From NCBI GenBank assembly GCA_015523125.1, contig WAKX01000037.1, forward strand, positions 1 to 39,819: a DNA stretch of 39,819 nt. Direction: 5' to 3'. This document shows, one piece after another, positions 10,130 through 12,519 of the stretch. The translations under genes and the position numbers were made by a program. Numbering within the stretch: the stretch's first letter is position 1; each line of letters opens with the position of its first letter. The notes beneath the pieces are model-generated. The model saw only the letters and a list, made by a program, of their open reading frames with translations. It made no database searches and was not told where the DNA came from. The DNA comes from DHVE2 group archaeon. Its GTDB lineage: Archaea > Thermoplasmatota > Thermoplasmata > Thermoplasmatales > Aciduliprofundaceae.

Positions 10130-10519
10130 TCAGGATACCTTCATGAGCTTTCTCTTGCCCATTGCTTCCCAGTACTGCGCGTTCTTTCCCGGCTCCACTT
10201 GGTCCTTTAATTCTTCAGGCACTGGAATTTCGAATGTCTCGAATGTTTCCGAGTCCATAAGCTGAACCTCATCGCCCATCACCGCTAAAATCTGAGCGTC
10301 CCTCTTCTCTATGATTGGAACCTTGACCTTGTGCTTTACCGGATATACAACGCTCCTCTTCTGCCCGTCGAAGACGCCTATCGCCACGATCCTCGCCTTC
10401 GCTTCTCCGTGCTTCCCCGGCTTGCTGGTTGTCATCTCCACGATCTTGCACGGCTCGTCATCTATCACCATGTATCCGCCAACTTTGAGATTTCTAACTT
10501 CCGTATCCTTCCACGACAT
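10130..10519 (-). CDS. eif5A: Translation factor aIF5A (hypusine-containing)
   Basis: Archaeal IF5A, 129 residues from the ATG at 10519. The frame extends upstream but [16 protein letters not shown] is the conserved N terminus, and GTGGTG precedes this ATG by 5 nt. The first SH3-like domain carries the modification loop [12 protein letters not shown], in which Lys36 (PGK-HG) is the expected deoxyhypusine/hypusine site. The C-terminal OB-fold includes '[15 protein letters not shown]'. The factor relieves ribosome stalling at difficult peptide bonds. It is first in an operon with agmatinase. A TATA box at 10551-10558 implies a leader of about 10 nt. Confidence 0.97.
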
Positions 10520-10550
10520 ATTGCACCACTCAATGGTTAATAGCATCCTA

Positions 10551-10558
10551 TTTATATA
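10551..10558 (-). promoter_or_regulatory. TATA box of the eif5A-speB operon
   Basis: TATATAAA on the minus strand is centred about 35 nt before the aIF5A ATG and about 25 nt before the inferred start of a short SD-containing leader. It stands back to back with the rpl3 promoter. Confidence 0.6.
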
Positions 10559-10608
10559 GATTTTGCAGCGCACTATGGGAAAACTTAAATCCCCGGCAAT
10601 CCGAATTC

Positions 10609-10616
10609 TTTATATA
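10609..10616 (+). promoter_or_regulatory. TATA box of the ribosomal (rpl3) operon
   Basis: TTTATATA is centred at 10612.5. Using the spacing that fits the other promoters here (about 25.5 nt), transcription should start near 10638, four nucleotides before the first paired base of the leader described next. Confidence 0.65.
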
Positions 10617-10637: not shown

Positions 10638-10746
10638 AAAAGTTAGCCAGACGCATTGGGCAACTGGATAAGGCCCAGCACCCGCAGCCAAGCGGCGTTT
10701 TGGCTCGCGGAAACAGGCGTCACGGCTAATGGCGAGGTGAATCGAA
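10638..10746 (+). promoter_or_regulatory. Structured 5' leader of the rpl3 operon: predicted three-way junction RNA
   Basis: The leader of about 109 nt folds by hand into three stems. P1: 10642-10648 with 10724-10730, then, after a small 1x2 internal loop, 10650-10654 with 10717-10721. P2: 10656-10661 with 10673-10678, with an 11-nt loop. P3: 10682-10685 with 10707-10710 plus 10686-10691 with 10700-10705, with one bulged C at 10706 and an 8-nt loop. The junction strands are 10655, 10679-10681 and 10711-10716. P1 closes four nt before the SD GAGGTGA (10734-10740), so folding or protein binding could control access. Autoregulatory r-protein leaders (for example L4 on the E. coli S10 operon) are known; an RNA of this shape is not one I recognise. 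Function is inferred. Confidence 0.6.
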
Positions 10747-11754
10747 ATGGGAAGTGCACATCATCCGAGACGTGGCTCTATGGCATATTATCCGCGCAAG
10801 CGAGCGAAGAGTATAGTTCCGAGAATAAGGACTTGGCCTGAGATTGAGGACGGCCCGAGAATACAGGGCTTCGCAGGCTACAAAGCGGGAATGACACACG
10901 TGATGACTGTTGACTGGAGAAAGAAAACAACCACCGCAGGTCAGGAGATTTGGACTCCGGTGACCGTTATTGAGGTTCCACCCATGAAGGTGGCCGCCGT
11001 GCGTTTTTATCTTCGAGACATGTACGGCCTGAAGAGCGTGGGGGAGATATGGGCCGAGAATTTGGATGAGGAGTTGAAGAGAAGGATACCCATGCCCAAG
11101 GAGAGCAGGGGCAGGGTTCCAAAGGAATTCGACGAAGTTAGGATTGTTGCTTACACCCAGCCCAAGATGGTTAGCGGTGTGCCCAAGAAGGCTCCGGATC
11201 TCATGGAGATAAGGGTCGGAGGGGGCACCGTGGAGGAGCGCAAAGATTACGCCATGAACCTTTTGGGCAAGGAAATCAAGTTTTCGGATTTCAAGACCAA
11301 TGGTAAATTTGTGGATGTTATCGGCATAACCAAGGGCAAGGGGTTCCAAGGCCATGTTAAGAGGTTCGGCGTGAAGCTCCTGAGCCATAAGAACAGTAAG
11401 CATCGCAGGATGATAGGTACCCTTGGTCCGTGGCATCCCGACTGGGTTCGCTACACCGTCCCGCAAGCGGGCCAAACGGGTTTCCATCAGAGGACCGAGT
11501 ACAACAAGAGGATAATCAAGTTCGTGGACTTAGTGGATAAAGAGGGAGAAAAGAAATTGGAGAGCGAAATCACTCCCGAAGGCGGATTTCTGCATTATGG
11601 AGAAGTGAAGAACCCATACGTTCTCGTTCACGGCTCGGTGCCCGGGCCCGCAAAGCGCTTGGTTCGCTTCAGGGATCCTGTGAGGCAGACTCTGGAGGAT
11701 GTTGACGATATCGAAGTTACTTATGTTTCCAGAGAATCCAAGCAGGGGGTGTGA
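10747..11754 (+). CDS. rpl3: Large-subunit ribosomal protein uL3
   Basis: Archaeal uL3, 335 residues, beginning with the conserved HHPRRGSMAYYPRKRA block and containing a central 'HKNSKHRRMIGTLGPWHPDW' region that reaches toward the peptidyl transferase centre. It is the first gene of the long ribosomal operon. Its start is fixed by GAGGTGA six nt upstream. Translation initiation is the step most likely to be affected by the structured leader. L3 is an early assembly protein, which makes it, along with L4, a candidate regulator of its own operon (inference). Confidence 0.98.
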   Translation: MGSAHHPRRGSMAYYPRKRAKSIVPRIRTWPEIEDGPRIQGFAGYKAGMTHVMTVDWRKKTTTAGQEIWTPVTVIEVPPMKVAAVRFYLRDMYGLKSVGEIWAENLDEELKRRIPMPKESRGRVPKEFDEVRIVAYTQPKMVSGVPKKAPDLMEIRVGGGTVEERKDYAMNLLGKEIKFSDFKTNGKFVDVIGITKGKGFQGHVKRFGVKLLSHKNSKHRRMIGTLGPWHPDWVRYTVPQAGQTGFHQRTEYNKRIIKFVDLVDKEGEKKLESEITPEGGFLHYGEVKNPYVLVHGSVPGPAKRLVRFRDPVRQTLEDVDDIEVTYVSRESKQGV

Positions 11755-11757
11755 TAA

Positions 11758-12519
11758 ATGAAGGTCAATGTTTACACAATTGATGGCGGAATAAAGGGTC
11801 AGGTGGAACTTCCCGAGCAGTTCAATTATCCATATCGCCCTGACCTGATAAGGATGGCAGTTCGCGTGTTCCAATTGAATAGGGTTCAGCCCCATGGAAT
11901 CAAAGAAGGCGCCGGGATGAAGGTTGCCTCCTCGTGGGGCCCTGGACACGGAATTTCCAAGATGGTTCCCCGCATAGGGAGTTCTTCCAGGGGAGCAAAT
12001 CTCCCCAACGTGCGCGGCGGACGCGCGGGCCATCCTCCAACAACGGAGAAGATATGGAAGAGGAAGATGAACAAGAAGATGAGGAGAATGGCGAAGTACA
12101 GCGCATTATCTATGACGGCCAACAAGGTTATGGTTATTAAGAGAGGTCACAAGTTCAACGAGGAGCTCACGCTTCCAGTTGTTGTCGAGGATAAGTTCGA
12201 AGAGATTAACAGGGTTAAGAACGCCATTGAAGTTCTTAAGAAGATGGGTCTGTACGATGATGTGCTTCGCGCAAGCGTCAAGAGGGTGCGCGCGGGCAAG
12301 GGAAAGATGCGCGGAAGAAGGTACAAGAAAAAGAAGAGTCTGCTATTGGTAGTCAAGAACAAGGAGAATGTGAAGAAGGGCTTCGGAAATCTGCCCGGCG
12401 TGGACATAGTGACGCCCGCGGAGCTCAACGCGGAGATTTTGGCTCCAGGAACTCATGCAGGAAGGCTGACCGTGTTCACAGAGGGTGCAATCGAGGAATT
12501 AAGGGGGTGGACTGAATGA
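11758..12519 (+). CDS. rpl4: Large-subunit ribosomal protein uL4
   Basis: Archaeal/eukaryal-type uL4, 253 residues. It has the RVFQLNRVQPHG-like N-terminal segment, the flexible loop that lines the exit tunnel (SSRGANLPNVRGGRAGHPP), and a basic C-terminal region ending GWTE. The start lies 3 nt after the rpl3 stop, with a GGTGTGA element as SD. Bacterial L4 doubles as a repressor of its operon by binding the mRNA leader, so it is a reasonable candidate ligand for the upstream RNA structure. That is untested. Confidence 0.98.
   Translation: MKVNVYTIDGGIKGQVELPEQFNYPYRPDLIRMAVRVFQLNRVQPHGIKEGAGMKVASSWGPGHGISKMVPRIGSSSRGANLPNVRGGRAGHPPTTEKIWKRKMNKKMRRMAKYSALSMTANKVMVIKRGHKFNEELTLPVVVEDKFEEINRVKNAIEVLKKMGLYDDVLRASVKRVRAGKGKMRGRRYKKKKSLLLVVKNKENVKKGFGNLPGVDIVTPAELNAEILAPGTHAGRLTVFTEGAIEELRGWTE

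Follow-up and report, generated by a model that had tools for sequence, protein, structure and literature searches.

A structured leader RNA before the rpl3 operon across Thermoplasmatota, probably an autogenous ribosomal-protein leader

The ribosomal-protein operon that opens with rpl3 (uL3) in the window studied here, the whole 39,819-nucleotide stretch of DHVE2 group archaeon contig WAKX01000037.1, is preceded by a structured leader RNA that recurs across the phylum Thermoplasmatota, and comparative evidence from aligned leaders makes it almost certain that this RNA is real. It is probably best explained as an autogenous ribosomal-protein leader (r-leader) for the rpl3 operon, with putative protein binding and repression. 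The element occupies positions 10642-10730, in a non-coding region bounded by a TATA box and by the start codon of rpl3 at 10747, and the TATA box places the inferred transcript start near 10638. By inspection of its translation, the upstream neighbor (10130-10573, minus strand) reads as aIF5A, and as it lies on the opposite strand the aIF5A and rpl3 promoters would diverge. The features of the locus are as follows.

10609..10616, plus strand: TATA box TTTATATA in the promoter of the rpl3 operon, from sequence; a similar motif and spacing occur in family f1 leaders
10642..10648, plus strand: P1a 5' strand GUUAGCC, from the fold and covariation
10649..10649, plus strand: conserved A of the P1 internal loop, invariant within the core CCAKAC
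10650..10654, plus strand: P1b 5' strand GACGC, from the fold; the loop-adjacent pair changes from G-C to U-A in family f6
10656..10678, plus strand: P2 hairpin UUGGGC AA CU..AG GCCCAG, from the fold; phylum consensus GGG-CAA-UGC..GCA-W-CCC
10682..10710, plus strand: P3 hairpin of 4+7 bp with one bulged C, from the fold and covariation; stem kept and sequence variable across the phylum
10717..10721, plus strand: P1b 3' strand GCGUC, from the fold and covariation
10722..10723, plus strand: conserved AC of the P1 internal loop, part of the conserved core
10724..10730, plus strand: P1a 3' strand GGCUAAU, from the fold and covariation
10734..10740, plus strand: Shine-Dalgarno GAGGUGA, from sequence; kept in family f1
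10747..11754, plus strand: rpl3 (uL3), first gene of the operon, from translation and the gene order in 20 leader loci
11758..12519, plus strand: rpl4 (uL4), second gene of the operon, from translation; candidate ligand by precedent only

The minimum free energy (MFE) fold of 10638-10746 is a three-way junction of -41.2 kcal/mol with an identical centroid structure, bearing out the junction and the P1 of 7+5 bp that the first-pass annotation had described. P1 is interrupted by a one-by-two internal loop, A10649 / A10722-C10723. The 6 bp previously given for P2 were recovered along with two further inner base pairs, and for P3 the outer 4 bp and the bulged C stood, with the inner stem, previously counted as 6 bp, extended to 7 bp including a G-U pair. 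The end of P1, previously placed four nucleotides before the Shine-Dalgarno sequence, is actually 3 nt from it. As 2 of 200 dinucleotide shuffles folded equally well (z -2.3), fold energy alone provides only modest evidence for the structure, and it is the comparative evidence that decides.

In a DNA search of relatives, 16 of the 17 other genomes of family f1 (families are given here as f-numbers and loci as L-numbers) yielded the leader or flanking sequence, and more distant families yielded the start of rpl3. P2 and P3 vary widely in length among the f1 leaders, and the stems are retained. Two-sided changes were observed in 12 of 21 pairs in an alignment of 17 leaders (A2, 93% of cells paired), in 16 of 21 pairs in an alignment of 49 sequences (A3), and in 19 of 23 pairs, including all five P3 pairs, in an alignment of 90 leaders from across the phylum (A5, 91% of cells paired). 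The covariation score of A5 was 0.470; shuffles scored 0.157 +/- 0.008, and sliding the partners gave 0.097 at most. The larger alignments (A3 and A5) were fitted to the structure, and the test was repeated on a structure-blind MAFFT alignment, where the eight strongest covarying column pairs all corresponded to P1 or P2 pairs and four of these exceeded every value in 20 tree-aware simulations. The covariation and stem conservation in relatives, on which the first-pass annotation had staked its claim of a folded leader, are thus strongly in evidence.

The distribution of the element was followed with two covariance models, R1 and then a second model, R2. R1 had a single match in each of 47 genomes out of 117 in the order, and likewise in 189 out of 400 in the class, and R2 matched 291 of 390 Thermoplasmatota genomes sampled, covering 108 of 155 genera. 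Family f6 leaders missed by R1 were recovered with R2. With both models, virtually every genome matched carried a single match, and no solo copies were found. At all loci checked whose contig extends far enough, rpl3 lies directly downstream (L067 and L069 end at contig borders), and the element was also seen at named rpl3 loci of Poseidoniales/MGII. Family f3 leaders (L202-L205, L208, L211) have a diverged form, CCACACGUC..GACGCAACGG, in which C.A and A.C jointly replace the two pairs flanking the P1 loop. There was no match in the one family f2 genome checked, and the element was absent from the eight family f15 genomes checked (L222-L229), in which the TATA box of rpl3 is about 50 nt from the ATG and the leader is only about 25 nt long. 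Outside the phylum, R1 and R2 with default filters found nothing, and R2 yielded nothing better than E 0.42 in 14 genomes.

Across the phylum, conservation is concentrated in two places. The internal-loop core of P1 reads CC-A-KAC / GUM-AC-GG, its K-M pair being mostly G-C and U-A in family f6, and the core of P2 reads GGG-CAA-UGC / GCA-W-CCC. The outer part of P1 varies freely in Thermoplasmatota, and P3 keeps its stem but is free in sequence apart from a 3' side that in many leaders is UUYUGG-like. Two conserved internal loops carried on a junction suggest a recognition surface.

The gene order L3-L4-L23-L2-S19-L22-S3 is constant in 20 of 20 leader loci as far as each contig extends, and the uL3-uL4-uL23-uL2-uS19-uL22-uS3 cluster contains the only genes found under the leader. 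This exclusive place fits an autoregulatory r-protein leader and argues against a metabolite riboswitch. The element shows two of the characteristics by which the r-leader class is recognized, namely a covarying conserved structure and a constant place in the 5' UTR, as set by the predicted transcript start, before r-protein genes. Of the two readings offered by the first-pass annotation, the autoregulatory r-protein site is therefore the one supported, by covariation and by exclusive location 5' of the rpl3 operon; the lineages without the element (f15 and the f2 genome checked) count against it. Mechanistically, a protein of the rpl3 operon in excess over rRNA would bind the RNA domain in the 5' UTR and, seated at the core, would hold P1 closed, keeping the ribosome off the rpl3 start and thereby shutting down the translationally coupled operon, with P3 serving as a structural arm only. 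Because only 3 nt separate P1 from the Shine-Dalgarno sequence here, and the two overlap in family f6, a protein that stabilizes P1 would be expected to hinder initiation.

The invariance of the operon order means that gene context cannot single out the ligand. By analogy with precedent, uL4 is a tentative first candidate, possible though well short of probable; uL3 comes next as a rather less likely one, and otherwise the ligand would be another protein of the rpl3 cluster. The precedent rule of the published survey of r-leaders gives uL4 as the first guess (PMC7247131), and we rate both this rule and the downstream-gene rule as weak. Using simple sequence and loop patterns together with R2, we looked for rRNA look-alikes of the element. 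A literal sequence search found the core motifs absent inside the 23S and 16S rRNAs of relatives, R2 had no match at rRNA loci, and a scan of rRNA for A/AC and CAA/W internal loops yielded no loop of the C-A..AC-G type at homologous positions of the two genomes, an A/AC-like site being common to G011 (2282/2307) and G025 (2249/2270) without the flanking core. This negative outcome counts against an r-leader, although most r-leaders reported in the survey are also without an rRNA look-alike (Eckert and Weinberg 2020, PMC7247131).

Downstream of the core, the architecture of the translation start differs among lineages. Throughout the element's own order, the gap from the end of the P1 core to the ATG is 13-35 nt and P1 stands against or over the Shine-Dalgarno sequence. 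In family f6, the 3' strand of P1 overlaps the Shine-Dalgarno GGUGAU. In many other orders the P1-to-ATG gap is 64-90 nt, with extra elements or hairpins near the Shine-Dalgarno sequence, and this variation in distance indicates that simple occlusion by P1 is not the whole mechanism everywhere. In one group with a long gap, a CUCUCU segment has two possible partners, an upstream GAGAG and the Shine-Dalgarno GAGAGGG; another has a GCGAG..CUCGC hairpin with one covarying pair; and in Poseidoniales (L158-L168, L185) a second conserved hairpin, CUCUGUAUGCCCC UUAU CGGGGGGCCAAUGCAGAG, sits between P1 and the ATG, before the Shine-Dalgarno sequence. The picture suggests a single sensing core that is coupled to different outputs among lineages.

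Two arrangements were noted around the core. Leaders of the f24 type (L080, L081, L098, L109, L113, L114, L116) carry four segments between P1 and the ATG, CACUCU / GAGAGUG / CUCUCUC / GAGAGGG, the last being the Shine-Dalgarno sequence, which would be hidden by pairing of segments 1-2 plus 3-4 and free with pairing of 2-3, an arrangement that could act as a switch-like expression platform. In family f11 (L076, L078, L094, L107, L110, L118-L120), a small hairpin lies directly 5' of the leader (e.g., GGACAU..AUGUCC), with a sequence that appears to covary between species. Its 3' arm doubles as the outer 5' strand of P1, so that this hairpin and P1 would be mutually exclusive.

Several other explanations were weighed against an r-leader. 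The one that survives best, though we consider it improbable, is a ligand-free structural 5' element, such as a stability cap, a ribosome standby site or an RNase or processing signal for the long operon message. The element does start nearly at the inferred 5' end of the transcript, and the strong closure of P1 in isolation would suit a protective role, but a simple cap needs no internal-loop nucleotides that are invariant across a phylum. Unlikelier again is a riboswitch that senses a metabolite or an ion and would match the ribosomal operon to the nutrient state. The combination of a compact junction, a strongly conserved core and a variable arm is aptamer-like, and in some lineages a segment further downstream offers the Shine-Dalgarno sequence an alternative pairing partner; however, the element was always found before the rpl3 operon in the loci checked and never before metabolic or transport genes, is present in one copy per genome, and has no match to any Rfam riboswitch, which disfavors the second suggestion of the first-pass annotation, an unrecognized riboswitch-like element. 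More broadly, no Rfam 15 family matched the window, the element alone or 11 related loci, and a tRNA scan found none. The element is also a compact, stable domain of the kind that might be released as a small RNA, either processed or acting in trans, control of rpl3 then being a secondary effect; we regard this as very unlikely, as the element is always in cis to rpl3 where checked, adjoins the Shine-Dalgarno sequence in its own order, and has no solo copies. A chance fold or a promoter or coding constraint, for which the energy z-score of only -2.3 might speak, is refuted by the A5 covariation and the tree-aware null, with compensatory changes far above shuffles, slides and that null in a region that is non-coding, and its probability is next to nil.

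The nearest described element is RF03135 (L4-Archaeoglobi), found before rplC, rplD, rplW and rplB and rated borderline as a predicted r-leader (Eckert and Weinberg 2020, PMC7247131), and the Thermoplasmatota leader appears to be a distant relative of it and not a member. The leader does not reach the gathering score of that family, 34.5 bits: the RF03135 model found nothing near it in the window, and the 11 related loci and 22 Thermoplasmatota genomes scanned likewise gave no match to the leader. RF03135 did match an Archaeoglobi rpl3 locus, and it was present in a Haloferax volcanii control and in 168 of 295 Halobacteriota genomes, a range within that phylum far wider than its name. The two elements are alike in lying 5' of the rpl3 operon as three-way junctions with a variable P3, a likeness to a published predicted r-leader that also speaks for the r-leader reading. 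The P1 of RF03135 is likewise interrupted by an asymmetric loop with an A-rich 3' side (A/AC in L305, G/AC in L300, GA or AA in others), and its P2 likewise starts with GGG(Y) and has an NRA/N loop (L301, GGGC-CAA-CGC..GCG-C-GCCC). In contrast, RF03135 has an outer P1 of CUGA..UCAG, which was not found here, where the fixed core is CCAKAC..GUMACGG. Whereas the Thermoplasmatota leader is directly at the rpl3 start, RF03135 is set back from rpl3 by 216-391 nt in the 20 loci measured and by about 410-470 nt in haloarchaea, and often falls in an upstream ORF.

An RF03135 match inside the upstream ORF was seen in many Halobacteriota genomes (L280-L299, L308, L318; e.g., L137:1056-1140), where RNA and protein would share sequence. 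By eye, this ORF resembles the barrel portion of a SPOUT-type methyltransferase (..RVWVNCG..GERVTIRV..). In L301, L303, L305, L306 and L313, RF03135 lies in no open frame.

Searching 27 Halobacteriota loci with R2 without filters gave 25 weak matches. The seven that were 76 nt or longer, together with one shorter match, all fell on the site and strand of RF03135 (L289 at 16.4 bits and E 0.056, L290, L288, L291, L294, L298, L286 and L297). As these matches are individually weak (7-16 bits), it is their coincidence in place that constitutes the evidence, although R2 might, with lower probability, simply favor closed three-way junctions in general. The pattern came from R2 on Halobacteriota only, the reciprocal test of the RF03135 model on Thermoplasmatota leaders having given no useful score. 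On balance, we favor common descent of the two elements. Somewhat short of an even chance, in our estimation, is the fuller proposal that a single rpl3-operon control RNA existed in the ancestor of Thermoplasmatota and Halobacteriota, that the Halobacteriota branch became embedded in a protein-coding gene, and that, while the protein-binding core stayed fixed, the expression platform next to it was exchanged several times. If true, this would place the rpl3-operon control RNA among the oldest r-leaders traceable by descent.

In bacteria, feedback control of ribosomal proteins is a textbook subject; in archaea it is, to our knowledge, barely known. The E. coli S10-operon leader is bound by L4 and also acts by transcription termination. 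It resembles the proposed r-leader in heading an operon of L3, L4, L23, L2, S19, L22 and S3 and in feedback by an operon protein, and no shared structure was noted in the comparison, which was by Rfam scan. Other archaeal r-leaders include eL15 (Euryarchaeota) and S15 (Halobacteria, Methanomicrobia), cis RNAs before r-protein genes (PMC7247131), which concern different genes and had no Rfam match here. The 2020 survey added four predicted archaeal leaders, of which the rpl3-operon one was borderline (PMC7247131). The Thermoplasmatota leader, a much broader variant than RF03135 of a known kind, the r-leader, is phylum-wide, strongly covarying and located before the largest r-protein operon, with obvious mutants to test. 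Taken together with RF03135, it would open up the questions of the age of r-protein leaders and of the ways in which a fixed binding core is re-wired to different translation-start architectures.
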